57,831 bases of DNA from an uncultured Oscillospiraceae bacterium (GTDB lineage Bacteria; Bacillota; Clostridia; Oscillospirales; Ruminococcaceae). The DNA lies in NCBI GenBank assembly GCA_949285935.1, contig CASEAH010000081.1, positions 1 to 57,831 on the forward strand, written 5' to 3'. The position numbers and the translations under genes are program-made. Below are positions 8,647 to 23,571 of this stretch, one piece after another (the first letter of the stretch is position 1; the number at the start of each line of letters is the position of its first letter). The notes beneath the pieces are model-generated. The model was given only the letters and a program-made list of their open reading frames with translations. It had not been told where the DNA came from and ran no database searches.

Positions 8647-9996
8647 ATGGTTATATATGATTTGCTCATTGCCAATGGGGATGTGGTAACGCCGGAGGGC
8701 TGCCGGCGGCTGGATGTGGCGGTGACCAATGGCAGGATTGCCGCGCTGGCGCCTTCGCCATCCGGGTTTTGCGCCAGGGAAATTGTAGATGCGGCCGGCC
8801 TGCTGGTCCTGCCGGGCGGCATTGATCCCCATGTGCATTTTGAAGACCCGGGGATGACGGACTGGGAGGATTGGACCCATGGCTCCATGGCCGCTGCCGC
8901 CGGAGGGATTACCACTGTTGCGGATATGCCGGTGGATAATCTGCCGCCCACCACCGATGTGCCCACTTTCCAGCTGAAAAAGCAAGCGGCGCTGAAGCGG
9001 TCCCTGGTGGATTTTGTCCTTTGGGGAGGGCTGACGACCGGCGCCGACTGCCCGGGGATGCTGACGGAGGGTGCGGTAGGGCTGAAGGCCTTTTTGGCAG
9101 AATGCGGAGGGCCTTATTTCCCTGTGGCGGACCGGGGGACTCTGTATGAGGGGCTGAAAACAGCTGCCTGTTACGGAAAACCGGTGACGGTCCACTGTGA
9201 AGACCAGGAACTGGTAAACCACTATACCCAGCTGTGCTGTGCAGGAAGAGGTCCCGGCGGCGAAGTGTGGTCTGCCAGCCGCCCGGTCATCTGCGAGCTT
9301 GCGGCCATAAACCAGGTCCTTTTTCTGGCCCGGAAAACCGGCGCCAGGGTCAATGTCGCCCATATCAGCTGCCGGGAAGCAGCGGATCTCATCAGGGAGG
9401 AAAAAAACGCAGGCGCTTTGGCCACTGCCGAAACATGCGCCCATTACCTTTATTTTGATGGGAGCGATGTGGAACGCCGGGGAACCCTGCTTAAATGTTC
9501 GCCTCCCATCAGGCCGTCGGAAAAGGAAGCCCTTTGGAAATGCATCATGGATGGGAGAATTGATATGGTGGCTTCTGACCATTCTCCCACCAGCCCGGAA
9601 CTGAGAAGGCTGTATGCGGAGGACATGCTTCGGGGCAGCGGAGGAATTTCCGGGGTGCAGTTTACCCTCAATGTACTGTATTCTCAGGGAGTGATGCTTC
9701 GGGGGCTTTCATTGGTCAGACTCACGGAAGTTTTTTCGGCCAACGCTGCCCGGATGCTGGGAATCTATGGACGCAAGGGGGCGGTGCAGGAGGGCTTCGA
9801 TGCCGATCTGGTGCTTTTTGATCCCCGGGAGGAATGGACGGTAAGCAGAGAGAATTATTGGGCCAAGGTTCCATGCAGCCCATACCTGGGAGAAACATTT
9901 ACCGGACGTGTCAAGGCCACCTATGTCCGGGGAAGGCAGGTATATGGCTTGAAAGGGGAACCCATATTCGGGGAGCCCTTACCCCAAATGCTGTAA
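8647..9996 (+). CDS. Allantoinase/dihydropyrimidinase-like cyclic amidohydrolase (paralogue 2)
   Basis: The 449-residue enzyme is a divergent paralogue of the product of 6509-7876. It keeps DPHVH, the lysine in GLKAFLAECG, the histidines in VTVHCEDQ and VAHISC, and the aspartate in VASDHSP. In the lysine loop the allantoinase-like SG of the first paralogue is replaced by CG, and the surrounding specificity segment differs. The pair therefore probably acts on two related rings or on two stereoisomers. A CGGAGGA ribosome site precedes the ATG. It sits 33 bases after the aldolase in the same operon. Confidence 0.9.
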   Translation: MVIYDLLIANGDVVTPEGCRRLDVAVTNGRIAALAPSPSGFCAREIVDAAGLLVLPGGIDPHVHFEDPGMTDWEDWTHGSMAAAAGGITTVADMPVDNLPPTTDVPTFQLKKQAALKRSLVDFVLWGGLTTGADCPGMLTEGAVGLKAFLAECGGPYFPVADRGTLYEGLKTAACYGKPVTVHCEDQELVNHYTQLCCAGRGPGGEVWSASRPVICELAAINQVLFLARKTGARVNVAHISCREAADLIREEKNAGALATAETCAHYLYFDGSDVERRGTLLKCSPPIRPSEKEALWKCIMDGRIDMVASDHSPTSPELRRLYAEDMLRGSGGISGVQFTLNVLYSQGVMLRGLSLVRLTEVFSANAARMLGIYGRKGAVQEGFDADLVLFDPREEWTVSRENYWAKVPCSPYLGETFTGRVKATYVRGRQVYGLKGEPIFGEPLPQML

Positions 9997-10017
9997 GAAA
10001 ATAAGGAGGAGATCCCG

Positions 10018-10761
10018 GTGCGTATTGTGGATATGCATGCTCATTTGGACGAAGTAGCTGCGTTGAACTGGTTTGACACCGGCGAAAAGCTGATCCGGCT
10101 GATGGACGAAGCGGGAATCGAGCTGGCCATTGTCAGCGCGTATCTGAATGTTCCCGGACCGGATATGGATGCTTTTGAGCGGATGTGCCGGTGCGTGGAG
10201 CCGTATGAAGGGAGACTGTTCCCTTTTATCCGAATGGATCCCTGGTTTGGACAGGAAGCGGTGGAATTTCTGGAAAATGCCTGGCGGCGCCACAAAAATC
10301 TTAAAGGCGTCAAGCTGCATCCGGGGCATTATACCCTTCACCCCTACGGAGACGCCACCACAGCGCTCATCAATAAGGCAGGAGAACTGGATCTTCCGGT
10401 ACTGTTCCACTGTGGAGATGAAGAAATGTGTCTCCCCCTGCAGATCGGAGAAATGATGAAGCGTTGTCCTGCCACCAAGGTGATTCTTGCGCACATGGGC
10501 GGGCTGGCCCATTGGAGGGATGCCATTTCTGTGGCAGAAAAATATCCCAATATTTATATTGATACCTCCGAGATCCCCTATGTATCCATGATCCGGAAGG
10601 TTGTGGATGCAATTGGAGCTGACCGTGTCCTCTTTGGAACAGACGCTCCCTATTGCGATCCCATGGTAGAGTTGAGGAAGGTACAGCTGGCAGGTCTCAG
10701 CGAGGAAGAGTATGAAAAGGTATGTTCTCTCAACGGGCTGAAGCTGCTGAAGCTGATATAA
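10018..10761 (+). CDS. COG2159-type amidohydrolase, metal site intact
   Basis: The 247-residue TIM-barrel hydrolase belongs to the amidohydrolase-2 (COG2159) family. It has MHAH near the N-terminus, KLHPG, LFHCGDEE, ILAHMGG and the catalytic aspartate in LFGTDAPY, so all usual ligands are present. Such proteins include decarboxylases and lactone or amide hydrolases. The GTG start at 10018 follows a GGAGGAGA site. It is 12 bases from a related gene with a degraded metal site (10774-11517), so the two may form a heteromer or act in sequence. Confidence 0.85.
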   Translation: MRIVDMHAHLDEVAALNWFDTGEKLIRLMDEAGIELAIVSAYLNVPGPDMDAFERMCRCVEPYEGRLFPFIRMDPWFGQEAVEFLENAWRRHKNLKGVKLHPGHYTLHPYGDATTALINKAGELDLPVLFHCGDEEMCLPLQIGEMMKRCPATKVILAHMGGLAHWRDAISVAEKYPNIYIDTSEIPYVSMIRKVVDAIGADRVLFGTDAPYCDPMVELRKVQLAGLSEEEYEKVCSLNGLKLLKLI

Positions 10762-10773
10762 GGGGGCGCGAGT

Positions 10774-11517
10774 ATGATTATAGATTTTCATGTCTATATC
10801 GGAAAATCCATGGTGGAAGGCCAGCTGAGTGTGGAAGATCTGCTCCGGAGCATGGAGGAAACAGGCATCGACATGTCGGTGCTTTGCCCGGTTAAAACCC
10901 TGGACAGCAGCTATCGGGAGCAGAATGCTTATGTGGCCCAGCTGCAAAAAAAATACCCGGACAAGTTTGCGGCGTATTGCCGGGTGGACCCCAATACCGG
11001 AGAACTGGGGCTGGAAGTATTCCGCCGGGGAATGGAAGAGCAGGGGCTGAAGGGAATGCTGCTGCACCCCTGGGAGGATACATACACCATCAATGACCAA
11101 AGGGTTTTTCCGTACATTGAGCTGGCGGGAAAATACAATGTGCCGGTTATGATCGAAACGGGCTATCCCTGGCTTTGCCACTGCTTCCAGGTGGGGGACG
11201 TTGCGCAAAGATATCCTCAGATACAGTTTATCATGACCCATGGGGGCCAGGTGGACAGCAGCGGCTTCAGCCAGGCGGATGCCGACCGTGTCATCGCCAA
11301 CTGCCCCAATATCATTACCGAAACGTCAGGGATGTTTTCCGATGAAACCATTGAAAGCATGGCCAACAACATGGGGCCTTACAGCCTTTTGTTTGGCAGC
11401 CACAGTCCCTGGCTGGATGTGCGCCTGGAGCTGTACCGGATCCGGAGGGCACATATTTCGGAGGATAAAAAAGAGATCATCCTGGGGAAAAACGCAGAAA
11501 AACTGCTGAAACTCTAA
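10774..11517 (+). CDS. COG2159-type amidohydrolase paralogue with altered metal ligands
   Basis: This 247-residue protein is the same length and fold as its upstream neighbour but has lost key ligands. The N-terminal HxH is DFHVYIG (second His replaced by Tyr), and the conserved FGTD aspartate is FGSHSPW. LLHPW and MTHGGQ remain. I recall other uncharacterised COG2159 members with the FGSH variant, so this may be a defined subfamily and not decay: the reading frame is intact and has no damage. It may be a non-hydrolytic enzyme, use a different metal, or be a regulatory partner of the intact paralogue. It is in the operon, 22 bases before the next gene. Confidence 0.8.
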   Translation: MIIDFHVYIGKSMVEGQLSVEDLLRSMEETGIDMSVLCPVKTLDSSYREQNAYVAQLQKKYPDKFAAYCRVDPNTGELGLEVFRRGMEEQGLKGMLLHPWEDTYTINDQRVFPYIELAGKYNVPVMIETGYPWLCHCFQVGDVAQRYPQIQFIMTHGGQVDSSGFSQADADRVIANCPNIITETSGMFSDETIESMANNMGPYSLLFGSHSPWLDVRLELYRIRRAHISEDKKEIILGKNAEKLLKL

Positions 11518-11539
11518 TGAAAAATACAGGAGGAAAAAG

Positions 11540-13036
11540 ATGAAAACTCTGTTTAAGGGCGGATATGTTCTGACACTGGACAAAGAAGACCGCCGGATTC
11601 CGGTGGGGGATGTCCTTATTGAAGGAAACAAAATTGTAGCGGTGGGCACGGATCTTCCTGCCGGGGACGCCAAAGTGGTGGACTGCACCGGCAAGCTGGT
11701 GATGCCGGGTCTGGTAAACTCTCACCTGCATTCGGATGAAAATCTGTTCCGTGGATTGTTTGACAACCTTCCTCTGGAGATTTGGATGCTGTACAGCTGC
11801 CCGGCCCTCCAGTACGGGCCTTTTTCGGAGCGCCTGATCTATCTGCGTACCATGCTGGGCGCTATTGAAATGGCAAAACTGGGCATCACCAGTGTTCAGG
11901 ATGATGTTTCGGAGTGTCCCGAAGGGACGGTGGCCGGATACAACCAGGTATTCAAGGCCTATGAGGATATCGGCCTGCGTGCCAACGTGGCCATGAACCA
12001 GCCTACCAGAACCTACTGCGATAAGCTGCCGTTTGTCAAAGACCTGATCCCGCAGGAAATCCAGAAGGAATTTGGTCCCGCTACTGACGGAAGCGCCAAC
12101 CTGGCTCTGTACGAGGAGATCATCAAAACCTGGAACGGCCGCAGCAATCTGAAAGTAGTAGTCTCCACCTCCGCGCCCCAGCGGTGCAGCGACGAGTACC
12201 TGCAAAAAGCCTACGCCATGGCGGAAAAATATGATTTGCCCTTCCACACCCACACCCTGGAGACCAAGACCCAGCGGGTAACGGGCTATGAGTTTTACGG
12301 CAAGACCATCATCGGCCATATCAAAGACCTGGGGATCCTGACCGACCGTACCACCATTATCCACTGTGTCTGGGTGGATGACGATGACATTGCCATGATG
12401 GGCCAGGCCCATGTCAATGTGGCCCACAACCCCGTCAGCAACCTGAAGCTGGGCAGCGGTATCATGCCCTTCCGCAAGCTGTGGGATGCCGGAGCCAATA
12501 TCGTTTTGGGAACCGACGGTATCAGCAGCAACGACAGCCAAAGCATTTTTGAGGGGATGAAATTTGAAGCCCTGCTCCACAAGGTCACCCACCCCGATTT
12601 CCATCAGTGGCCCACAGCCGGTGAGGTTTTGAAAACAGCCACTGAAAATGCGGCCCGCAGCCTGCGTCGCTCCTCCGAAATCGCTTCTTTGGAAGAAGGA
12701 AAGCGTGCCGATCTGCTGGTACTGGACATGGACACGCCCGCCTTTACGCCCCTTAACGATGTGAAAAACCATCTGGTGTATTGCGAAAATGGCAGCTCCA
12801 TCCGTCAGGTATGGGTGGACGGCCGGCTGATTGCAGAAAACGGCGTGGTCCTTACAGTGGACGAAAAGAAGCTGATGGATGAGCTGCGGGGGCTTATGCC
12901 CGAATTCAAGGAGAGATTCCGGTATAGTGTGGAAACCAACAACCGGCTCTTCCCCTACCTGGAGCAGATGTATTGGAAATGCATGAACATGGATGTGAAG
13001 CTCAACCGATTCTCCCAGCCATATCCGGAAAAGTGA
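11540..13036 (+). CDS. TRZ/ATZ-type amidohydrolase (deaminase/chlorohydrolase-like)
   Basis: The 498-residue cytoplasmic enzyme has the mononuclear ATZ/TRZ layout: an N-terminal beta-sandwich with NSHLHSDE, then FHTHTLET, IHCVWVDDDD and the aspartate in VLGTDGISSND. The family includes guanine, cytosine and S-adenosylhomocysteine deaminases and SsnA-like proteins. It most likely removes ammonia from a ring or amidine. An AGGAGG site precedes the ATG. The truncated gene at 5960 appears to be a relative of this class, so the cluster once had at least two such enzymes. Confidence 0.87.
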   Translation: MKTLFKGGYVLTLDKEDRRIPVGDVLIEGNKIVAVGTDLPAGDAKVVDCTGKLVMPGLVNSHLHSDENLFRGLFDNLPLEIWMLYSCPALQYGPFSERLIYLRTMLGAIEMAKLGITSVQDDVSECPEGTVAGYNQVFKAYEDIGLRANVAMNQPTRTYCDKLPFVKDLIPQEIQKEFGPATDGSANLALYEEIIKTWNGRSNLKVVVSTSAPQRCSDEYLQKAYAMAEKYDLPFHTHTLETKTQRVTGYEFYGKTIIGHIKDLGILTDRTTIIHCVWVDDDDIAMMGQAHVNVAHNPVSNLKLGSGIMPFRKLWDAGANIVLGTDGISSNDSQSIFEGMKFEALLHKVTHPDFHQWPTAGEVLKTATENAARSLRRSSEIASLEEGKRADLLVLDMDTPAFTPLNDVKNHLVYCENGSSIRQVWVDGRLIAENGVVLTVDEKKLMDELRGLMPEFKERFRYSVETNNRLFPYLEQMYWKCMNMDVKLNRFSQPYPEK

Positions 13037-13045
13037 GGCGCTGTT

Positions 13046-13705
13046 ATGCAAAGGAACCAATTGGCCAAACTGTGCGATCATACCAATCTGAAAGCGTTTT
13101 CTACCACCCGTGACATTGAAAAACTTTGTCGGGAGGCCCGGGAATATGGGTTTGCCTCGGTTTGCGTGAACCCCTGCCATGTGGCGCTGGCCGCAAGACT
13201 GCTGAAGGGAAGCGGTGTAGGAATATGCACGGTCATCGGATTCCCTCTGGGGGCCAACACCAGCGCCGTCAAGGCATGCGAGACCCGGGATGCCATTCAA
13301 AACGGGGCCACGGAAGTGGACATGGTCATCAACATCGGCGCCCTGAAGGAAGGGGATACCCAGCGGGTGTACGAGGATATCCAAGGAGTGGTGGAAGCAG
13401 CTGCCGGCGTGGTAACAAAAGTGATTATCGAAACCTGCTACCTTACCGATGAAGAAAAGGTAACGGCTTGCCAGCTTGCACAAAAAGCCGGAGCCGATTT
13501 TGTCAAAACCTCCACCGGATTTGGCACCGGCGGCGCCACTGCCCATGATGTGGAACTGATGAAAAATACGGTGGGAAGCAGCATGAAAGTCAAAGCTTCC
13601 GGAGGAATGCGGACATATGCGGACGTGGTCCCTGTATTGGAGGCGGGCGCCGACCGCCTTGGAGTCAGCGCTTCGGTTGCCATTCTGGAAGGGGCGGAGG
13701 AATAA
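13046..13705 (+). CDS. deoC: Deoxyribose-phosphate aldolase
   Basis: The 219-residue class I aldolase carries the DeoC signature residues: the aspartate in EVDMVINIG, the Schiff-base lysine in FVKTSTGFG and the second lysine in MKVKASGG. It splits 2-deoxyribose-5-phosphate into glyceraldehyde-3-phosphate and acetaldehyde, or a similar short phosphoketol. No nucleoside phosphorylase or phosphopentomutase is nearby, so its role here may be cleavage of a pathway-specific deoxy-sugar phosphate and not general nucleoside recycling. It is the last gene of the operon and is followed by a long hairpin terminator. Together with the SorC/DeoR-type regulator at the front it frames the cluster. Confidence 0.95.
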
Positions 13706-14514: not shown

Positions 14515-15963
14515 TTATGGAGCGCCGGAGGGAACAGCGGCCAGGGCGTGATCCTGCCGGCTTTTGGACTGCTCCAGATCCTCAAAATCTCCCAGATTTT
14601 CCAGAACCAGATAAGAAGCGTTTACCCCCAGGGTGGGATGCTCCGCCTGAGCGGCCAGGGTAGCGGGAATTTTTCCATCCAGCTGCTTCCGGCAGCTTTC
14701 TGCCCGGAGACGGCAGGTCTCCAGCAGGGTGTCTACCGCCAGCAGATGGTCCTCATAGGAGCAGAAGGCAGTGGGATCCGCCTGCACATAAGGGGCGATG
14801 AGCCTCTGCGTTTCGCGGATGACCGCTTCATATCGGCCGTTTTCAAAGTATTGGGTCAGCAGCCGGTCCCAACAGGTGTGATACTGGTCAAAACAAGCCT
14901 GGTCCTTCATTAAATGATGGTAGAGGGGCCGCTTGGTCATGATTTCCCCCGGAGCGGGGGTGTTGATGGGATAGTTGATGAGAACATTGGGGTCCCGGAT
15001 GGGATCGGTCATGCCCAGAGCATAGGTGCCAAAGGCCAGATTATAATCCCAGGGAAGGATGGATAAAAGCCCATCTTCTTCATAGAGAAAATAATTATGG
15101 CCGGTATGCCCCAGATAGCTGTCCCAGTTCATGACAAATACCTGAACAGGGAAATAGCTCAGCACTTCCTCTAAGTTTACCGCTGTTTCCAGATCCTTCC
15201 CGGAGGCAAGGGTCCGCAGAGCCCCGATCAGCCGGGCCCTATCCGCTGCGGTCGTGTCAAATTTGGCATTTTCAAAAATATTGGGGTAGCTGGACGGGTC
15301 GTCATCCACATACCGAAGGGCCACGTCGGCGTTTTCGTCTTGGAGAGAGCGGTAATCCGGCTTGTACAGCTGGCCATGATCCACCCCAAAGTTCCGTCGG
15401 ACAAAGGCTTCCTCTGGCTCCTCGATAGCCAGAAACAGCCCCCAGGGCTGGCCGTTTACCGTTACCCAGGCATAGCTGCACAGCGGGGCCGGTACCCCCA
15501 TAAAAGCCATCATGTCATAGGTGAGATAGCTTTTCAGATAGCTGTTGTCCTGAAAGGAAGCGTCCAGAGAAAGCTTGTCCAGACCATAGTAGCTGCCGCC
15601 GTCCAGATAGTGGTCAAACTCCAGCTTGAGGCTGTACCGGCTCAGGCCGTATTGCTCTGTCAGCCGCAGGGAATTGTTCCCCTTTGCCCGCAGCCCCACC
15701 TGGAAAAATTCCTCCCCGTCAATGACAGCGGTGCAGGGACGATAGGCTTCTTCCGGAGCGGCTTCGATGAAATCCTGCCAGTTTTCTACCCGCAGATCCA
15801 CCGTGTGGACCCGGCTGCTGTCAAAAAGGCGGAACACATACCCGGGAGCGGTGCTGGCAGGGCGGATTCCCAGACTTTGACCGAAGGCCAGCAGCACGGT
15901 CAGCCCCAGTGCCAGCAGAGCCGCCAGGAAACAGATCAGGTCGATGTGCTTATGTCGGATCAT
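14515..15963 (-). CDS. cotH: CotH-family kinase-like protein, membrane anchored
   Basis: The 482-residue protein starts at the ATG at 15963 (MIRHKHIDL), four bases after the preceding stop. One hydrophobic segment at about residues 9-28 anchors it, with the large domain outside. The CotH kinase landmarks are present: WGLFLAIEEPEE (about 174-185), MNWDSYLGHTGHNYFLY (about 278-294) and the metal-binding ILPWDYNLAFG (about 302-312). CotH in Bacillus phosphorylates spore coat proteins. In this cluster type, with DUF4956 and a VTC protein, the substrate is unknown. An N-terminal anchor instead of a cytoplasmic form means that it acts at the cell surface. It is the last gene of a four-gene operon. 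Confidence 0.88.
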   Translation of the reverse strand: MIRHKHIDLICFLAALLALGLTVLLAFGQSLGIRPASTAPGYVFRLFDSSRVHTVDLRVENWQDFIEAAPEEAYRPCTAVIDGEEFFQVGLRAKGNNSLRLTEQYGLSRYSLKLEFDHYLDGGSYYGLDKLSLDASFQDNSYLKSYLTYDMMAFMGVPAPLCSYAWVTVNGQPWGLFLAIEEPEEAFVRRNFGVDHGQLYKPDYRSLQDENADVALRYVDDDPSSYPNIFENAKFDTTAADRARLIGALRTLASGKDLETAVNLEEVLSYFPVQVFVMNWDSYLGHTGHNYFLYEEDGLLSILPWDYNLAFGTYALGMTDPIRDPNVLINYPINTPAPGEIMTKRPLYHHLMKDQACFDQYHTCWDRLLTQYFENGRYEAVIRETQRLIAPYVQADPTAFCSYEDHLLAVDTLLETCRLRAESCRKQLDGKIPATLAAQAEHPTLGVNASYLVLENLGDFEDLEQSKSRQDHALAAVPSGAP

Positions 15964-15967
15964 CGCT

Positions 15968-16645
15968 CTATCCCATATAGTCTCCATTGTAGGAGACCAG
16001 AACCACATGACGGACGCCTTCCATTTCTCCCAGTTCATTGACAAAGGCCGCATCGGCTTCCCGCAGGCGCACCTCATAATTCAGTTCCACCTCACCGGGG
16101 GAAACGCTTTTGCTCTTGAGATTTATTTTGCGGACCCGATTGGACACCAGAGCTTGTATTTGACGCTCCTGTGCGGCATCAGCGCAGTGGACCACCAGGA
16201 TGTAGGGAGATTCCCCATTTTTTTGACGGGAAAAAATCAGCAGTACTCCGCCCACAAAGAGGCTGCCCACCACCGCCAAGGGGATCAGCCCCGCAGCCAG
16301 AACAATACCCACGGCGATAGCCCAAAAAAGGAACGCAATATCCATGGGTTCCTTGATAGCGGTACGGAACCGGACAATGGACAGGGCGCCCACCATGCCC
16401 AGGGAAAGGACCACATTGGTGGTCACCGCCAGAATGAGAAGTGTGGTGATCAGGGTCAGGGCGATGAGAGTAACGCCGAAGCTGGGGGCGTACATGACGC
16501 CACAGTAGCTGCGCTTATAGACAAGAAAGATAAACAAACCCAGAAAAAATGCCAGAATCAGGGCCAGCGTCATATCCAGCATGGAGACACTGTTCATGCG
16601 CTCCAGAAAGCTGGATTTAAAAATATCCTGAAAAGTTGTGGGCAT
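15968..16645 (-). CDS. DUF4956 multi-pass membrane protein
   Basis: The 225-residue protein has about four membrane segments (roughly residues 20-42, 50-72, 80-98 and 100-130) and a soluble C-terminal domain. It contains the family's conserved GMVGALSIVRFRTAIKEP, which lies at a membrane border. I chose the ATG at 16645 because AAAGGAG is 8-9 bases upstream; the ATG at 16651 is too close to it. DUF4956 genes regularly stand between a VTC-type polyphosphate polymerase and CotH, as here, so it is probably the membrane channel or scaffold for that system. Its biochemical role is not known. Confidence 0.88.
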   Translation of the reverse strand: MPTTFQDIFKSSFLERMNSVSMLDMTLALILAFFLGLFIFLVYKRSYCGVMYAPSFGVTLIALTLITTLLILAVTTNVVLSLGMVGALSIVRFRTAIKEPMDIAFLFWAIAVGIVLAAGLIPLAVVGSLFVGGVLLIFSRQKNGESPYILVVHCADAAQERQIQALVSNRVRKINLKSKSVSPGEVELNYEVRLREADAAFVNELGEMEGVRHVVLVSYNGDYMG

Positions 16646-16676: not shown

Positions 16677-17363
16677 TCAGTCAAACCGCCGGCATAAGGC
16701 ATATTTGGAACAGGCTCCCGCCCGCCGCCCCGGGATCTGCACCGCCATGCGGACCACATCGGGCAAAAAAGCGTCGTATTTGACCTCCAGCACCGTGAGG
16801 TCCTCCAGCACATTCAAATAAAAAAGCTGGGGATTAAAAAAATCCACACTGCCAAGGCCGGAACGCACATTGCGGTCCAGGGTGATCCGGACATTGCCGG
16901 GAACATAGGAGAAAGCTTCCCGGTCATAGCATACGATGGTCCGGGGACGCAGGCATTGTCCCTGCAGCTTGCTGTAAAATTCTGCCGCCAGGGGGTCCCG
17001 GCAGTCACGTAAAAAATGGCACTCTCCGGCCAGGAGCCGTTCTCCATCTTCCCGGGATAGCCGGATACTGCGCTTGCCGCACAGCCCGCGGGTTTTCCAT
17101 TTCTTTTCCAGACGCAGGAAGCCGGTATCCGTACCATAGTAGCGCAGGCGAAATTTTTCCCGGCGGTCCACGCCGTCCAGTTTTTCCCTCAGTGCACTGT
17201 CGTAAGGGGTATCAAAATACAGGCTGGTGACCCGATAGCTTCCTTCCGGCCCGGCATACCGGTCATGGGGGAACAGCTTGCGCAGCCGTCCGGAAAGCAC
17301 CAGATCCTCCAAAGGAGAGATCTGGTGCTTGTATTCATGGCGCAGCCTGGGAGGCTCAGTCAT
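16677..17363 (-). CDS. VTC-domain polyphosphate polymerase-like protein
   Basis: The 228-residue soluble domain is a triphosphate-tunnel fold of the VTC type. Charged strands line the tunnel: RHEYKHQIS at the N-terminus, SLYFDT, KFRLRYYG, LEKKWK, YDREAF, RITLDRNVR and LEVKYDAFLP. These are the Lys/Arg/Glu residues that bind ATP and growing polyphosphate in yeast Vtc4. The ATG at 17363 overlaps the end of the lipoprotein gene by eight bases; another in-frame ATG lies at 17372. Bacterial members lack the SPX domain of yeast, as here. With DUF4956 beside it, it probably makes polyphosphate at the membrane. Confidence 0.87.
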   Translation of the reverse strand: MTEPPRLRHEYKHQISPLEDLVLSGRLRKLFPHDRYAGPEGSYRVTSLYFDTPYDSALREKLDGVDRREKFRLRYYGTDTGFLRLEKKWKTRGLCGKRSIRLSREDGERLLAGECHFLRDCRDPLAAEFYSKLQGQCLRPRTIVCYDREAFSYVPGNVRITLDRNVRSGLGSVDFFNPQLFYLNVLEDLTVLEVKYDAFLPDVVRMAVQIPGRRAGACSKYALCRRFD

Positions 17364-18429
17364 TCCGGTCATCATAGTTGGTATCCCGATAATTGGTGTT
17401 GCCATAATCGGTGGAGCGGCTGCTGCCGGAACCATAGTCGGTGTCTTTGTAGTCGGTCACGCCGTCGTTGTTGGGGCCGTAGTCGGTATCCTTGTAATCG
17501 GTGACACCGTCGTTGTTGGGGCCGTAGTCGGTATCCTTGTAATCGGTCACGCCGTCGTTGTTGGGGCCATAGTCGGTGTCTTTGTAGTCGGTCACGCCGT
17601 CGTTGTTGGGACCATAGTCGGTATCTTTGTAATCCGTCACACCGTCGTTGTTGGGGCCGTAGTCGGTATCCTTGTAATCGGTGACGCCGTCATGGTCGGG
17701 ACCATAATCGGTGTCATCGTAGTCCTGAAAATCGGTGTCCATTTCCACTACCTTGCCGGTGACGGCATTGATTTCATACTCATATTCCACGCCGTCCAGT
17801 ACAAATTTTACTTCGTACTCCCCGTCCTTCAAATCGTACTCTTTTTCCAAAAACTCAATGTCATCCCGGTCCAGCTGTGCAGAGAGGATCTTCCGGGCGG
17901 CAGCGGTACTGATGTACCCCTGGTCATCGTAATCGTCATCGTCCAGAGCAACGGTCTTGGATCCGATCTGATCGGCCTCCACCACGGTGCGCACCGCGTC
18001 GGCCAACTCATCCAGGAAGTTGTCGTTGGGATATTTGGAGCCGCGCTCCAGCTTGAGGATGATATTTTTCTCGTGGCCGTCTATGGTGGCGTCAAAATAT
18101 CCGCCCCGCTCGATTCGGGAAACCAGTTCGCCAATGACCGTCTTGCAGGACTTTCCCTGGTAACCGGTATAGGAAGCAAGGACGTCCCGGCCGTCTTTAT
18201 TGAGTCCGGTAAGAGATACTACTTTTCCTTCTTCATTGTAGTGCATTTCAATTTCGGGGTTTACACTCAGCAGCAGGGTGCCAACGCCGCCTTCCGAAAC
18301 CTGCAGGGGGTCGGAGGACGCGGATCCCTGAACAGGACCGGCAGGGGACCCGCAGGCGGTCAACGCAGCCAGGATCAATGCGGCGGCCAGAGCCAGCCCC
18401 AAACGTTTGACATGGAAAAATTGTTTCAT
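17356..18429 (-). CDS. Lipoprotein with RsgI-like motif, PepSY-like domain and Asp-rich repeats
   Basis: The 357-residue product starts at the ATG at 18429 (SD GGGAG about 10 bases upstream; the ATG at 18438 is too close to it). A signal peptide ends in the lipobox LTAC (Cys26). Next comes TLLLSVNPEIEMHYN (about residues 51-65) followed by LTGLNKDG, very like the extracellular part of RsgI, including the Asn-Pro pair (57-58). A PepSY-like segment (about 175-235, from the ISTAAARKIL segment to EYEINAVTGKV) follows. The tail is six tandem copies of a 15-residue unit, DTDYGPNNDGVTDYK, then a degenerate end. It lacks the cytoplasmic anti-sigma domain. The same repeats occur in the RsgI product of the adjacent operon. 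It is first in the operon with VTC, DUF4956 and CotH. Confidence 0.85.
   Translation of the reverse strand: MKQFFHVKRLGLALAAALILAALTACGSPAGPVQGSASSDPLQVSEGGVGTLLLSVNPEIEMHYNEEGKVVSLTGLNKDGRDVLASYTGYQGKSCKTVIGELVSRIERGGYFDATIDGHEKNIILKLERGSKYPNDNFLDELADAVRTVVEADQIGSKTVALDDDDYDDQGYISTAAARKILSAQLDRDDIEFLEKEYDLKDGEYEVKFVLDGVEYEYEINAVTGKVVEMDTDFQDYDDTDYGPDHDGVTDYKDTDYGPNNDGVTDYKDTDYGPNNDGVTDYKDTDYGPNNDGVTDYKDTDYGPNNDGVTDYKDTDYGPNNDGVTDYKDTDYGSGSSRSTDYGNTNYRDTNYDDRND
17446..17715 (-). repeat. Six 45-bp tandem repeats inside the lipoprotein gene
   Basis: Six in-frame 45-bp units encode the 15-residue repeat. The first reads GPDHDGVTDYK and the other five GPNNDGVTDYK. The units differ at synonymous positions, so they are not a very recent expansion, but their protein sequence is almost invariant. 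The opposite strand is open for 389 codons only because of this periodicity. Confidence 0.95.
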
Positions 18430-18549
18430 TCTGTTCATCTCCCTTAAAAACAGCAGATTGTTGCATCAAATCAGCGGTACGACGTCGTCTGCCGGAAACC
18501 GGGATCCCAGGATCCCATGATTTCTTTGGCCTTTCCGGCTTACACAGAC

Positions 18550-18581
18550 AGAATACGGAGGAAACTTTCCCAAACCGGGGT
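18550..18581 (-). promoter_or_regulatory. Candidate SigI-dependent promoter of the lipoprotein-VTC-DUF4956-CotH operon
   Basis: Read on the minus strand, ACCCC (18581-18577) is followed after exactly 18 bases by CCGTATTCT (18558-18550). The same layout, CCCCC-N18-CCGTATTCT, precedes sigI at 20501-20470. SigI-type promoters are known for a C-rich -35 element and a CG-containing -10 element. The element lies about 120 bases before the lipoprotein start. No convincing sigma-A promoter is visible in this 228-base gap. Confidence 0.65.
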
Positions 18582-18657
18582 CGCCGGATCATTTTTTTAA
18601 AAATTTTTTTCAGTCCCCGCATTGGCGTTACCAAAGCTCACGAAAATCCTGTGGGCT

Positions 18658-19704
18658 TCAGCGGTCCTCCGTGTCTCTGTCGGCATAATCGGTGTCACCG
18701 TCCGTATAGGATGCTCCATGGGAGGGTTGGTAGTTGGTATCTCCGCTGCCTTGGTCATCCGGGGAGGTTCCCGGGTCATAATCGCTGTTTTGCCCGTTGG
18801 CTTCCGCCTCAACGGCAGAACTGCTGTGTGTATCTTTATAATCGGTTGCGCCGTCGTTATTGGGCCCATAGTCGGTATCTCCATAATCGGTTACACCGTC
18901 ATTATTGGGGCCATAGTCGGTATCCCCATAGTCGGTTACGCCATCGTTGTTGGGGCCATAGTCGGTATCCCCATAGTCGGTTACGCCATCGTTGTTGGGG
19001 CCATAGTCGGTATCCCCATAGTCGGTGATGCCGTCGTTGTTGGGCCCATAATCCGTATCTTGATAGTTGGAATCCCCCGGTGACTGGGGAACGGCAGGGA
19101 TCACGACCTCTCCCATCCCCGGGGAGGAAGCCTGCCCGGAGTCCGGGCTGTCCAACCGGATCACCACGCTTTCCCCGTAGCGATCCTCCAGTTGCGTACG
19201 CACCTGCTCTTCTTCTTTTTCCCGCCAGGAAGGATCCGAACTGTTTACCGTGATGGAAATCGTGTCTCCATCCGACAGATACCCCATATCGATGGCCCGT
19301 TCCACCAGTTCGTCGGTGGCGGTATCCCGGGTTTTGCCCCGGTAATCGTAGCCCTGGATGAGGAGTGCGCCGTCGTCGTTAAGGCCCTGGAGCCCAAGCA
19401 CCCGCTCGGTGCGGCTGATGGTCATTTCCACGTCGGGGTTGATTTGAATGCGCAGGGTCCCGTATGCGGTGAAATTGGGGCGATAGTAGCCAAAGAAAGC
19501 CACACACAGGCAAGCCGCAGCGCCGGCCAGCGCCGCTGCTGTCTTCCAAAGGCGCGGACGGCTTTTTTCTCCAGGACGCAGCGGGATGACCTCCTGCACC
19601 GTATCTCCCACCTGGTAGCGGAGATTGGCTACCTTGAGAAAATGTCCTGACTCGTCCAGCACCACCGCATAGGCCGGGTGGGTTTCCATCACCAGATATT
19701 TCAT
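18658..19704 (-). CDS. rsgI: RsgI-like anti-sigma factor with Asp-rich extracellular repeats
   Basis: The 348-residue protein begins with the RsgI-type cytoplasmic anti-sigma domain (residues 1-45, MKYLVMETHPAYAVVLDE onward), then one membrane span (about 54-73). Outside are YGTLRIQINPDVEM (81-94) and LQGLNDDG, the RsgI domain known to self-cleave at Asn-Pro in other Clostridia (here Asn89-Pro90). A linker, five copies of DTDYGPNNDGVTDYG (216-290) and an acidic Ser/Gly-rich tail complete it. There is no carbohydrate-binding or hydrolase module, which many clostridial RsgIs carry as sensor; the repeats may take that place. Its ATGA overlaps the sigI stop, with AAGGAGG inside sigI, so the two are translationally coupled. 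Confidence 0.9.
   Translation of the reverse strand: MKYLVMETHPAYAVVLDESGHFLKVANLRYQVGDTVQEVIPLRPGEKSRPRLWKTAAALAGAAACLCVAFFGYYRPNFTAYGTLRIQINPDVEMTISRTERVLGLQGLNDDGALLIQGYDYRGKTRDTATDELVERAIDMGYLSDGDTISITVNSSDPSWREKEEEQVRTQLEDRYGESVVIRLDSPDSGQASSPGMGEVVIPAVPQSPGDSNYQDTDYGPNNDGITDYGDTDYGPNNDGVTDYGDTDYGPNNDGVTDYGDTDYGPNNDGVTDYGDTDYGPNNDGATDYKDTHSSSAVEAEANGQNSDYDPGTSPDDQGSGDTNYQPSHGASYTDGDTDYADRDTEDR
18835..19059 (-). repeat. Five 45-bp tandem repeats inside rsgI
   Basis: Five in-frame 45-bp units encode DTDYGPNNDGxTDYG, where x is Ile, Val, Val, Val and Ala; the last unit ends in Lys. They match the repeats of the downstream lipoprotein almost residue for residue, apart from Gly against Lys at position 15. 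The DxD...NNDGxTD spacing recalls calcium-binding thrombospondin type 3-like or dockerin-like loops. Confidence 0.95.
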
Positions 19705-20444
19705 GCCTGTTTCCCTCCTTTCGTGGGCCCCAGCTGACAAAGATGGCCCCGAATGATTTCATAACCGTTGGTAAAGGCCAGAAGAATGGCCACCAGATAT
19801 TTTCGGTGTCTTTCCAGCGTCTTTTGATCGGTACCGGAGCCTGCCGCCAGTTCCCCCATGGGAAGACGGCCTGTCTGCTCCAGACGCTTCAGAAGCTGAG
19901 GATTGGCCCGGGCGTAGTCAAGTACCCTGCGGCAGGCCGCCATGGTACGTTCCTGGCGGGGGCAGTTATCCGCTACCTGGGAAAAGGAGATTCCCAGTCC
20001 CTCCAGTTTTTGGCCGAATTCCTGGATTTCCTTGCGGCTGGCTTCCCGCAAGGTGTAGGCTTCCATGGCATCTCCGCTGTCCGGAAGGGTATCCAGCAAG
20101 GGGCGATCTTCTTCCTCCTGGCTTCCCGCGGGGGTGTGAAGGGAAATCACGTTTCCGTGGCGCTTTTCCACCCGGTAATGGTCAATGAGCCGGTTGCGGA
20201 TTCCCCGGGCAGCATAGGAAAGAAACGTGCCTCTGCTTTGCTGATAGCTGAGGATAGCCTCGTAAAAAGCCAGCATGGCGATGCTCCATTCGTCCTCGTG
20301 GCCCTGCTCCGGGGCGGCATGGGTGAATTTAATCGTTTCGCTGCGGATAAACCCCATATATTGCTGGATCAGGGCATCCGCCAGCTGGGGATCCTCTTTG
20401 GCCCGAGCCACCAGTTCCCCCAGATCCTGTTTTGTTTCCATCAT
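19701..20444 (-). CDS. sigI: RNA polymerase sigma factor SigI
   Basis: The 247-residue sigma factor has a SigI-type N-terminal region 2 (IQQYMGFIRSETIKFTHAA, then DEWSIAMLAFYEAILSYQ and RGTFLSYAARGIRNRLIDH) and a C-terminal region characteristic of SigI and not of sigma-70 region 4. The start at 20444 follows GGAGGG by about 6 bases. It lies directly upstream of, and overlaps, rsgI, the usual partner that holds it inactive at the membrane. In Bacillus it responds to heat; in cellulolytic Clostridia it responds to extracellular polysaccharide sensed by RsgI. Here the putative target is the adjacent lipoprotein-polyphosphate-CotH operon, based on the shared promoter element. Confidence 0.92.
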   Translation of the reverse strand: MMETKQDLGELVARAKEDPQLADALIQQYMGFIRSETIKFTHAAPEQGHEDEWSIAMLAFYEAILSYQQSRGTFLSYAARGIRNRLIDHYRVEKRHGNVISLHTPAGSQEEEDRPLLDTLPDSGDAMEAYTLREASRKEIQEFGQKLEGLGISFSQVADNCPRQERTMAACRRVLDYARANPQLLKRLEQTGRLPMGELAAGSGTDQKTLERHRKYLVAILLAFTNGYEIIRGHLCQLGPTKGGKQA

Positions 20445-20469
20445 GAGATTCCCTCCATCCCCCAAGAAA

Positions 20470-20501
20470 AGAATACGGTACGGCCGCGGGATTTTCGGGG
20501 G
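20470..20501 (-). promoter_or_regulatory. Candidate SigI-dependent autoregulatory promoter of sigI-rsgI
   Basis: On the minus strand CCCCC (20501-20497), 18 bases, then CCGTATTCT (20478-20470), ending 26 bases before the sigI start. The nine-base downstream half is identical to the one at 18558-18550 and the spacing is equal. Confidence 0.65.
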
Positions 20502-21248
20502 AAATTCAAAAATTTGCGGCCGGGAAAACGGGCATATTTCCACAGTATATTCTCTATTGTACCACGATACAGGGAAGAGGAGGAGAAAGGAAAGGAAGAT
20601 GCAGGGGTAAAATTTTTGTAAATTTCTCCGCATTTTATGGAGGGACCTGCGAAAGAACCGTTGATTCACCGGTGAAGCAATGGAATACTTCCCGGCAAAG
20701 CAGCCGGCAGAGGCCGGATCATAACAGATATATACCGGTCCGGATCCGTTATGTTGGATAAAGCTGCAAGACCATCCGGACAGCCTGCCGGCACGGAGGC
20801 GCTGTGCAGGGGGCGGCTTCATAAAGTCCGACGCCATCACCTATGGAAGGCAGGCGCCTGGCGGAGAAGCCTGCCATAAAAAAGAAGCTGCGGCAAAATA
20901 GCCTCGCTGAAAAACGATGTACAGAAATCGGTGCCCCAAAGAAGCAGAACCGCTTGGTTAGAGGGCCGATTTTGATTGTTTATCTCTCATTCTTTGTGCA
21001 AACCGCAATTGCCTTTCCGTTTTGCAGCAGTCCTCTGTGATCCATCATGAGAGAAAAACAGGATCCCACGTGTCCGGGAATTCTTATTGATTCCTGTAAG
21101 CCCTGCGGAGCAGGGAAAACCGGGGAAAGATGATTTTTCGTCATACAAAAAAGATTGAGCTTTATCATTCAAAGCCGTCTGCCGCCGGCGAAAAAATCAG
21201 ACTGCTGCAAACTGCCGATAGGATAAAATCTAAAAATAGGCGGATGTA
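20502..21248. other. Intergenic stretch between sigI and the BlaI-type regulator
   Basis: No gene is supported. On the minus strand a TACAAT box near 20565 could serve sigI as a second promoter, but it has no good -35. From about 20905 a repeat module occurs (separate entry). The rest has no clear structure. Short frames here lack ribosome sites and family features. Confidence 0.5.
20905..21040 (+). repeat. Dispersed module S, copy 1 (hairpin plus TATCTCTC/TTTTGCAGCAG blocks)
   Basis: A terminator-like hairpin contains AAGAAGCAGAACCGCTT, followed by ATTGTTTATCTCTC and, about 40 bases on, TTTTGCAGCAG and CCTCT. The same blocks in the same order recur at 50808-50960. A looser version occurs at 25127-25283. 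It lies in non-coding DNA. Confidence 0.75.
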
Positions 21249-21298
21249 TTGACACGGATACTCTACGATTGTAGAATAATATTGTACTACAATTGTAG
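21249..21298 (+). promoter_or_regulatory. Promoter with two BlaI-type operator dyads
   Basis: TTGACA (21249-21254) and TAGAAT (21272-21277) are 17 bases apart. Two 12-base dyads, CTACGATTGTAG (21263-21274) and CTACAATTGTAG (21287-21298), cover the spacer/-10 and the start region. TACA/TGTA dyads of this kind are the known BlaI/MecI binding sites, so the repressor just downstream most likely controls its own operon. Confidence 0.85.
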
Positions 21299-21310
21299 AG
21301 GAGGAGCGCC

Positions 21311-21691
21311 ATGGATCCCAATATCATCCGCCGTCTGCCGGATGCCGAACTGGAGGTCATGCAGGCCCTGTGGTCCTGCACGCCCCCGGCAGACCGGGCT
21401 GCAATCGAAAAAAATCTTCACCGGGCCAGGCCTATGGCTGCAACCACCCTGCTGACACTGCTGGTCCGGCTGGGGGAAAAGGGGTTTGTGAATATCGAAA
21501 AAAGTGGGCGGAAAAGCATCTATACGCCTTGTGTTTCCCGGCAGGAATACCTGGCTGCTCAGGGGCGGAACTTTTGGGAAAAACTCTGCGGCGGCAGCGT
21601 GTCCACCTTTGCTGCCGCCCTGTGTGACAGCGGTTTATCCCGGGAAGAACTGGCCCAGCTGCGGGAACTGCTGGAGAAGGAGGCCCTATGA
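21311..21691 (+). CDS. BlaI/MecI-family transcriptional repressor
   Basis: The 126-residue winged-helix protein has the family pattern LPDAELEVMQALW at the start, TTLLTLLVRLGEKGFVNIEKSGR in the recognition helix and wing, and a short C-terminal dimerisation domain. A GAGGAGGAG site precedes the ATG. It overlaps the following M56 protease gene by four bases (ATGA). Known relatives are inactivated when a membrane M56 peptidase, triggered by a signal, cleaves them. Here the operon holds no beta-lactamase, so it regulates itself and possibly unlinked genes. Confidence 0.93.
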   Translation: MDPNIIRRLPDAELEVMQALWSCTPPADRAAIEKNLHRARPMAATTLLTLLVRLGEKGFVNIEKSGRKSIYTPCVSRQEYLAAQGRNFWEKLCGGSVSTFAAALCDSGLSREELAQLRELLEKEAL

Positions 21692-23571
21692 GTGTGGAAG
21701 TGCTGCTCCGGGGATTTTTTGCCCTGATCCTTTCCGGGGCCCTGGCTTATGCCATCTACGACAGAAACCAGCGGGAAACCATGGAAACTCTTCCGCCCAG
21801 GCAGCGCCGTTATGTGCCCTATCTGGCCAACTACCTGCTGCCCCTTTTCCTGCTGATCCTTGCAGTGGCCCTGCCCTTCCAGTACGACGGGCAGACCACT
21901 GTGCAGATGATCTTTTCCATGTGCTTTGAGATTTTTCTGCATATCAGTGTCTATTACGCCCTTTTGCTGCTGGCGCTGCCCCTGCTTCGCCGTACTCTCA
22001 GTGCCCGGGTCTGCGCAGTACTTTGGCTGCTGCCCAATTATCTCTACTTTACCCAGCAAAGCTTTATGCAGCTCCCCGGACCGCGCTGGGTGATCCGGGT
22101 CCCCGCGCCGGCGGTAAAAGCGGCGGAGATTTTGTGGCTGACCGGCTTTGCAGCGGTGCTGGGATGGAAAATAGTCGCCCACCTGCTGTTCCGGCGCAGT
22201 GTTTTGAAAGACGCCCGCCCGGTAACAGACCCCGGGATCCTGGCACTTTGGCGGGAGCAGCAGGCGGCGGCTGGAATGGAGCCAAAGAAGGGCGGCATTC
22301 CGCTGATGTACGCGTCCCGGGTCCGGACGCCCCTGACAGTGGGCTTCTTTCGGAAAACCCTTCGGGTGCTTCTGCCGGAGCGGAACTATACACAGGAGGA
22401 ACTGGTCCTTATCCTCCGCCATGAAATGATCCACATTGGCCGGGAAGACAGCTTTAACAAATTCTTTCTTACCTTCTGTACTGCCATGTGCTGGTTCAAT
22501 CCTCTTATGTGGATGGCCATGCGCCGCAGTGCCGATGATCTGGAACTGAGCTGTGATGAAACGGTCCTCCTCAACGCCGACGCCGGCACCCGCAGCCGTT
22601 ATGCCGATTTGCTGCTGCGCACAGCGGGAGATGAGCGGGGGTTCACCACCTGCCTTTCCGCTTCCGCTTCTGCCCTTCGCTACCGGCTGCGAAACGTCAT
22701 CAAGCCCCGGAAGCGCCTGGAGGGAGGTTTTGCGGTAGGGCTTGTCTTTTTCGGACTGATCATCAGCTGCGGCTATGTGGCGCTGGCCTATCCCATGGCC
22801 ACAGGGCAGGAAGGGATCTTCTACAGCGGGGATCTTTTGGAGCACCGGCTGCAAAGCGTCAGCCAGGTGGTGGACGGCGGCCTGCAGAATTATGTCTGTA
22901 CCGACGAAAATGCCCTGAACCGATATCTGGCGGAACTGCAGCTCTATGAACTGACCGGCAATTACTCCTTTTCTTCTCCGGGCAGGGAGATGATCCTGAT
23001 TTACCAGGGCCCCCGGGGCGTTTTTGGAGTCCACCTGCAGGATCAAACGGTAGGGGTGACCCCGCTGTACGACGAACAGCCGGAAAAACGGAATTATTAC
23101 CTGACAGAGCCGCTGGACTGGGAGAGGCTGGATGAACTGCTGATCCTTCCCCCGGAAACGGAAGAGGACCTTCCGCTCCCTCCCCAACTGATGCTTTATT
23201 TTAATGAAGAGGCCAACCCCGACGGCCAGCTGATGGAGGCGGAGGGTCATGTGCTGAATTTGGCGGTGGACGGCCAGGTACAGCCCGGCGGGGAGTCGCC
23301 GCCCTTTACCGGTCAGGCGCCGGGGATCAGCGGCATCGAGGCTGCAGAAGTACGGCTGTATTTTTCCCATGACCTGTATACGTCTTCCTACACGGTGGAA
23401 GTGGAAAACTGGGATCGGAGCGCAAGCCGTCAGCTGTTCAGTGAGGATCTGGAAGATCCCTTTCTCCTGCCGCTGGTTCCATACAGCGCCCATTATACCC
23501 TGTATGCCAACTTCCGGGATGGCGACGAGGTTTACGAGATGGCCTACCGGTTTGATGTGGAACTTCCTTAA
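21688..23571 (+). CDS. BlaR1-like M56 membrane metallopeptidase with unusual extracellular domain
   Basis: The 627-residue protein has four to five N-terminal membrane segments, a cytoplasmic zinc peptidase site HEMIH (245-249) with the downstream ELSCDE glutamate, and one further membrane span near residues 345-368. The C-terminal 260 residues face outside. In BlaR1 that part is a penicillin-binding sensor with an STxK serine, but here I see no such motif: it is an acidic domain of unknown type (from about 375 to 627). The protein probably senses a different signal and relieves repression by the BlaI-type neighbour. The start codon overlaps that gene. Confidence 0.87.
   Translation: MSVEVLLRGFFALILSGALAYAIYDRNQRETMETLPPRQRRYVPYLANYLLPLFLLILAVALPFQYDGQTTVQMIFSMCFEIFLHISVYYALLLLALPLLRRTLSARVCAVLWLLPNYLYFTQQSFMQLPGPRWVIRVPAPAVKAAEILWLTGFAAVLGWKIVAHLLFRRSVLKDARPVTDPGILALWREQQAAAGMEPKKGGIPLMYASRVRTPLTVGFFRKTLRVLLPERNYTQEELVLILRHEMIHIGREDSFNKFFLTFCTAMCWFNPLMWMAMRRSADDLELSCDETVLLNADAGTRSRYADLLLRTAGDERGFTTCLSASASALRYRLRNVIKPRKRLEGGFAVGLVFFGLIISCGYVALAYPMATGQEGIFYSGDLLEHRLQSVSQVVDGGLQNYVCTDENALNRYLAELQLYELTGNYSFSSPGREMILIYQGPRGVFGVHLQDQTVGVTPLYDEQPEKRNYYLTEPLDWERLDELLILPPETEEDLPLPPQLMLYFNEEANPDGQLMEAEGHVLNLAVDGQVQPGGESPPFTGQAPGISGIEAAEVRLYFSHDLYTSSYTVEVENWDRSASRQLFSEDLEDPFLLPLVPYSAHYTLYANFRDGDEVYEMAYRFDVELP

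Follow-up and report, generated by a model that had tools for sequence, protein, structure and literature searches.

A sigma-I-like factor and twin promoter-like elements predicted to join its own operon to a lipoprotein-VTC-DUF4956-CotH operon

What reads two matching elements that stand on either side of a sigI-rsgI-like gene pair? The question arises from contig CASEAH010000081.1 (57,831 nucleotides, the whole stretch analysed, here called the window) of an uncultured Oscillospiraceae bacterium whose assembly comprises 2,441,424 bases in 110 contigs and is 89% complete. On its minus strand lie, in this order, genes for a sigI-like sigma factor (247 residues), an rsgI-like anti-sigma protein (348 residues), a lipoprotein (357 residues), a VTC-domain protein, a DUF4956 protein and a CotH protein. 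A sequence-only reading of the window had noticed one element upstream of sigI and again upstream of the lipoprotein gene, and had proposed that SigI transcribes both its own operon and the neighbouring one. The element, (A/C)CCCC-N18-CCGTATTCT, is indeed present exactly at both places, on the minus strand and with the same 18-base gap, at 20501-20470 (CCCCCGAAAATCCCGCGGCCGTACCGTATTCT) and 18581-18550 (ACCCCGGTTTGGGAAAGTTTCCTCCGTATTCT). We posit that both elements are very probably promoters, P(sigI) and P(lipo), read by the sigma-I-like factor encoded between them, and that together they would constitute the small dedicated regulon of a sigma-I/RsgI switch, a known type of switch with a different target.

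Within a single genome, it is exactness alone that marks the pair. The two window copies are the only exact matches in their own assembly, and when up to two mismatches are allowed the window holds three matches against a shuffle mean of 0.79 (3 of 100 shuffles reach three), which is modestly unusual. The strong evidence is that from relatives, which were sampled twice: as a first set of 120 related genomes, nine of which, including the window's own, encode a close SigI (E < 1e-50), and as a second set made up of the best 80 loci of 392 relatives in a named-genome scan, which includes Flavonifractor and Pseudoflavonifractor isolates. The sets overlap (L134 and L064 are the same contig, and a few records derive from one genome), and the 80 loci are related, so that their counts are not independent events. 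Gene orders in the second set were obtained by tblastn with the window proteins, and some loci are cut by contig ends. The motif was searched in a loose form, CCCC-N19/20-CGTA, in a stricter form, CCCCNNWWW-N14/15-CGTANNCT, and, for the 120 genomes, as CCCCGNWWW-N14/15-CGTANNCT.

Loss of the motif from loci that keep the coding parts, named beforehand as the contrary outcome, is not what we find. The loose motif occurs in 18 of 18 gaps (upstream of sigI and between rsgI and the lipoprotein gene) of the nine genomes and is near-universal in the 80 loci, of which 23 carry the full operon, 29 sigI-rsgI-lipoprotein, 14 a lipoprotein gene or operon divergent from sigI, 13 sigI-rsgI and one sigI only. 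It precedes sigI in 77 of 79 loci (L132, whose start lies off the contig, was dropped; mean of 200 mononucleotide shuffles, 0.35), fills the rsgI-lipoprotein gap in 52 of 52 (0.26 by the same shuffling), and stands before a divergent lipoprotein gene in 13 of 14 (shuffle mean 0.02), the miss, L165, having a motif just outside the set boundary. Taking one locus per cluster of 80% SigI identity leaves 31 of 33, 21 of 21 and 6 of 6, respectively. Among the eight other genomes of the first set, the full gene order after sigI is found in L064, L065, L070 and L071, and in L066 as far as the contig extends, up to its start; in L067 the locus breaks off within the lipoprotein gene, L069 has sigI-rsgI-lipoprotein only, and in L068 no match to VTC or DUF4956 was found between the lipoprotein gene and cotH.

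The motif is also specific to these places. The stricter pattern has 164 matches in the gaps of the 80 loci, 15 elsewhere in 934,120 bases and none in the reversed sequence; 13 of the 15 lie just after an rsgI without a lipoprotein match, one is in the divergent gap of L165 and one (L139) is unexplained. The looser motif, outside the gaps, is close to the level of its reversed control (57 matches versus 51), and is absent from all 107 regions upstream of vtc, duf4956 and cotH (200 bases each, those with less than 150 bases being left out). Conservation is confined to two blocks: averaged per column, the -35 block has 1.3-1.5 bits, the spacer 0.2-0.3 and CGTANNCT 1.5 in the three larger cluster sets, and in the small divergent set (n=5) the pattern is similar but flatter (1.15, 0.49 and 1.09 bits). 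The leading C of CCGTATTCT, which the first reading had counted as part of the element, is not conserved, and the core is better written CCCC-N19-CGTA-NN-CT, with an A- or T-tract after the C run. When the window was scanned with a position weight matrix derived from 57 sites of the 80 loci alone, its two elements took the top two places (30.7 and 30.2), with 14.3 for the next best match. About 8 to 18 bases upstream of the element, relatives have an A/T-rich tract resembling an UP element. Tandem promoters are common in the target gaps: of 52 loci, 31 have a pair of motifs, separated by 62-77 bases in 20 cases, and one has three. The window has kept a single promoter there, with a possible remnant of another at 18504-18478. 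Next to this possible remnant, at 18516-18501, the lipoprotein operon's untranslated leader holds an inverted repeat, GGGATCCTGGGATCCC.

The motif goes with this particular sigI and moves with its target. Among the 120 genomes, the nine with this sigI have 18 matches against one in the reversed control, versus 18 against 20 in the other 111. The lipoprotein (E 1e-10) is found in 10 of the 120 genomes, namely the nine and G083, which is 85% complete and whose best match to this sigI reaches only E 1e-4; the G083 homologue, cut by a contig end, has no motif, and TTGTCA-N17-TAAACT stands in its place. In G026, whose sigI lies on another contig, the motif precedes a complete lipoprotein-VTC-DUF4956-CotH operon. 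The motif is kept at sigI and lipoprotein genes also where the target is divergent or unlinked. Other off-locus matches in the nine genomes were rejected as targets, the exception being this one on contig 10 of G026 (contexts were judged by eye from open frames). A wider regulon was sought in the window's own genome with the stricter pattern, which gave three matches, two of them the known pair and one (contig 70) without fitting genes by eye; this was a search by pattern in an 89% complete assembly, and targets may have been missed. The locus is patchy, with a close sigI in 3 of 10 genomes of the window's genus (several incomplete). Orthologues of 55-75% identity are spread over several gut clostridial families, and many of their carriers have poultry-type names. 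We note that the sigI-lipoprotein locus looks accessory or transferred.

The protein, for its part, resembles sigma-I factors of known structure. Sigma-70 region 2 is recognized in the window factor (PF04542, 31.6 bits, cut-off 24), and a nine-sequence profile matches SigI6 (8i24 chain F) with E 1.1e-31 over profile positions 4-228 of 234, C-terminal domain included, and SigI1 of the PDB with E 1.4e-29. In SigI6, R98, D101 and R104 contact C-14 and G-13 of the promoter, and R97 forms a wedge next to base -12 (PMC10575876). In an alignment of 89 rows (including the L064/L134 duplicate), R98 is kept in 88 of 89 and D101 and R104 in 89 of 89, and position 97 is occupied by N in 67 rows and by S in 19. 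From the C-14 G-13 W-12 A-11 numbering of the same paper, transcription would start at 20463 for P(sigI); the predicted start for P(lipo) is 18543. The likeness to known SigI promoters, claimed by the sequence-only reading, is borne out by published spacing and elements (PMC4711584, PMC10575876): the Bacillales consensus is ACCCCC--AA-N15-CGAA and that of the C. thermocellum sigI genes C-----AAA-N13-14-CGWA (PMC4711584), and P(sigI) fits the latter in full.

Several results weigh against this reading and should be set beside it. At P(lipo) the expected AAA is replaced by TTT, P(sigI) having AAAA, and in C. thermocellum the A-tract was found by mutation to be needed by sigma-I3 (PMC6056542). 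SigI6 inserts H171 into the A-tract minor groove and requires it for activity (PMC10575876); here, all 89 rows have Q at this position. Of the other minor-groove residues of SigI6, K170 corresponds to R or K in 88 of 89 rows, R172 to a variable position (E in 53) and S174 to T in all 89. The protein falls below every NCBIfam SigI curated cut-off (best 151.1 versus 306; TIGR02895 133.2 versus 185 bits), and we therefore name it sigma-I-like rather than a SigI equivalog. Upstream of sigI, L140 and L161 have a near match only. The strict pattern lacks a fitting gene nearby in 4 of 21 matches, as chance predicts. Lastly, at two or fewer mismatches the own assembly gives 30 matches and the reversed-pattern control also 30, so that the improbability first attributed to the identity of the two elements holds for exact matches and does not extend to approximate ones.

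The A- and T-tracts tend to fall to different kinds of promoter. In clusters of the second set, sigI promoters divide into 24 with an A-tract, three with a T-tract and four with neither, and target promoters into 34 with a T-tract, two with neither and none with an A-tract (Fisher p 5e-14, shared ancestry ignored). Since AAAA is found in only two of nine sigI promoters of the first set (the window and L064) and the unlinked target in G026 shows an A-tract, we regard this division as a trend and not a rule. Among seven remote SigI homologues, L075 also has N97 and Q171 and is preceded by CCCC-AAAA-CGTA, and L073 (M and H at these positions) has CGAA. The two fit an association of N97 with CGTA, and because the L075 element has AAAA, Q171 does not require a T-tract. 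The residue changes may explain the use of CGTA and of T-tracts.

It is against this background that other explanations are to be weighed. The motif might be the site of another regulator, a repressor or response regulator acting on both operons, with transcription by sigma-A; binding of SigI to the motif is, after all, a prediction, and the sigI gap does contain an extended -10-like sequence, TGGTACAAT. To that extent the earlier statement that neither gap has a good sigma-A promoter needs amending, although a consensus scan of 18300-21300 found no sigma-A type promoter on the minus strand, its sole match being on the plus strand. Related extended -10 sequences, TGNTANAAT, occur upstream of P(sigI), at varying distance, in 9 of 31 relatives (shuffle mean 0.5, maximum 3) and in none of 21 clusters in the rsgI-lipoprotein gap, pointing to basal expression by sigma-A that is limited to sigI-rsgI. 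Target transcription by sigma-A would lack a site of this form, the one for which the relatives were scanned, and of any sigma-A type in the window. The architecture also speaks against an operator: two blocks 19 or 20 bases apart, with an unconserved spacer between them and oriented towards the gene, correspond to the -35 and -10 elements published for sigma-I, and opposite-strand matches in sigI gaps are confined to exactly the 14 divergent loci. We consider a different regulator very improbable.

Nor does it seem credible, on the evidence, that real promoters are read by some other sigma factor. One candidate is found in the second SigI-RsgI pair of the window's own genome (contig 31; L078, 4869-6680), which has a different outer tail, with much Gln, Gly, Ser and Pro; yet this second sigI has no such element upstream, the sigma-A-like TTGTGA-N17-TATGAT being found there instead, and where a genome has no more than remote SigI or other sigma homologues, the strict motif stays at control level. 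This assignment is highly improbable. Least of all do we favour a chance match or a recent functionless duplication. Two sites alone are thin evidence, and approximate matches in the own genome do not exceed their control, but the motif is specific and has been conserved over 33 clusters at the same places in diverged relatives whose spacers have diverged, and we give this explanation next to no credence. That the motif is conserved in position and spacing, that it occurs together with this sigI and that it travels with the target operon all support the proposal that the sigma-I-like factor reads both its own and the neighbouring operon, with its binding to the two promoters as the predicted step.

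If so, the switch may be pictured as follows. The RsgI-like protein would, judging from its family, span the membrane and hold SigI. A signal received by its outer part would lead to self-cleavage in RsgI_M, then to intramembrane proteolysis and to the release of SigI, as in C. thermocellum, where RsgI6 undergoes self-cleavage and is then processed by RseP and ClpXP (PMC12203970). RNA polymerase with SigI would then start at both promoters. At P(sigI) this would add a positive loop to expression from the probable basal extended -10 promoter, read by sigma-A, and at P(lipo) it would lead to expression of the lipoprotein, VTC, DUF4956 and CotH genes. The bond self-cleaved in the outer domain of RsgI proteins is Asn-Pro. 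RsgI_M is clearly present in the window RsgI (PF23750, 78.8 bits, cut-off 25.3), and RsgI_N falls just short (PF12791, 22.1 bits, cut-off 25). Asn-Pro is found in the RsgI_M region of 78 of 79 RsgI proteins of the clade, the miss (L102) being cut by a contig end, and in 61 of 66 lipoproteins; of the five without it, two (L118 and L175) seem to come from wrong or incomplete frames, two (L162 and L177) carry Gly-Pro, and L152 lacks the stretch. RsgI and lipoprotein of the window have both RsgI_M and the DTDYGPNNDGVTDY repeat in common. Because the lipoprotein carries the RsgI_M domain and acidic repeats of RsgI, the target operon encodes an anchored protein that resembles the sensor's outer part and would plausibly exert feedback on the same extracellular signal. 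In the six loci whose tails were compared (L103, L121, L141, L154, L161 and L177), the RsgI and lipoprotein tails of one locus are similarly acidic. The tails have DTDY repeats in L103 and L121 and are Asp-rich in L141 and L154. They look as if they were changing together.

The closest known systems are the sigma-I/RsgI pairs of C. thermocellum (PMC4711584, PMC6056542, PMC10575876, PMC12203970), which share a SigI-like factor with an adjacent RsgI_M anti-sigma factor, a C-rich -35, a CGWA -10, 13-14 bases from tract to -10 and a promoter of sigI's own. They differ in serving cellulosome regulation, the window target being lipoprotein-VTC-DUF4956-CotH and not carbohydrate enzymes; in their RsgI, that of the window ending in acidic repeats with no sugar-binding domain by Pfam; and in promoter and reader, target promoters here having mostly T-tracts and the factor Gln in place of His171. 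The Bacillales SigI-RsgI systems (PMC4711584) are alike in the ACCCC -35 and in the element upstream of sigI-rsgI, and differ in having CGAA where we find CGTA, and at the target T-tract. In gene content the nearest likeness is to NELoc-2 of Clostridium perfringens, a cluster with a SigI-type sigma factor, a 348-residue wall protein, a VTC-domain protein, membrane proteins of 226 and 222 residues and CotH (Table 4, PMC2879425); the two are alike by listed content, compared by description only, and the part of the text that describes NELoc-2 does not mention promoters or regulation. In the open-licence literature searched, nothing was found on regulation of a lipoprotein-VTC-DUF4956-CotH operon. 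Members of the VTC family are associated with polyphosphate and CotH family members are kinases. The target genes of the Bacillus SigI regulon are unlike those of the window.

Table 1. Predicted promoters, related sequence elements and genes of the sigI-lipoprotein locus.
Feature	Position in window	Strand	Remark
P(sigI), predicted sigma-I type promoter of sigI-rsgI: -35 CCCC G with A-tract AAAA, -10 CGTA (20477-20474) with TTCT	20470..20501	-	
P(lipo), predicted sigma-I type promoter of the lipoprotein operon: -35 ACCCCGG with T-tract TTT, -10 CGTA (18557-18554) with TTCT	18550..18581	-	
A/T-rich tract directly upstream of P(sigI), UP-element-like	20502..20517	-	Weakly conserved in relatives
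A/T-rich tract upstream of P(lipo), UP-element-like	18592..18610	-	
TGGTACAAT, extended -10-like; candidate basal sigma-A promoter of sigI	20556..20564	-	Type enriched in relatives
TCCC-N19-CGTA, possible decayed second target promoter; weak	18478..18504	-	Outside the eight best weight-matrix matches of the window
sigI-like sigma factor gene, 247 residues	19701..20444	-	Domain, profile and alignment searches
rsgI-like anti-sigma gene: RsgI_N-like start, hydrophobic stretch, RsgI_M with INP, DTDYGPNNDGVTDY repeats	18658..19704	-	
Lipoprotein gene: lipobox-like signal, RsgI_M with VNP, PepSY domain, DTDYGPNNDGVTDY repeats	17356..18429	-	
VTC-domain gene (polyphosphate-polymerase-like)	16677..17363	-	Domain search
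DUF4956 protein gene	15968..16645	-	Domain search
CotH kinase-like gene	14515..15963	-	Domain search

Elsewhere in the window, the plus strand carries a near-consensus sigma-A promoter, TTGACA-N17-TAGAAT, at 21249-21277, before genes at 21311-23571 (+) that form a penicillinase-repressor/M56 peptidase pair divergent from sigI. At 8647-13705 (+) lies an amidohydrolase/hydantoinase-like gene run with a deoxyribose-phosphate-aldolase-like gene last, named by reading translations.

Beyond what the first reading of this DNA contained, the analysis adds the T-tract in most target promoters, the frequent tandem target promoters, the probable basal extended -10 promoter of sigI, and Gln in place of the minor-groove histidine of SigI6. 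A bolder proposal, which we hold to be possible but rather unlikely, is that gut Clostridia possess a sigma-I sub-class in which a His-to-Gln change at the -35 minor-groove reader lets both T-tracts and A-tracts be read, with a tendency toward an A-tract at the factor's own promoter and a T-tract, often in tandem, at the target, and in which the lipoprotein copy of the sensor's outer domain closes an extracellular feedback loop around surface polyphosphate/CotH chemistry. The combination of T-tract and His-to-Gln change would offer a direct test of how sigma-I reads the minor groove of the -35 region. If the sigma-I assignment is true, the lipoprotein-VTC-DUF4956-CotH surface genes of many gut Clostridia would gain a regulator, a promoter and a handle on the signal to which they respond.

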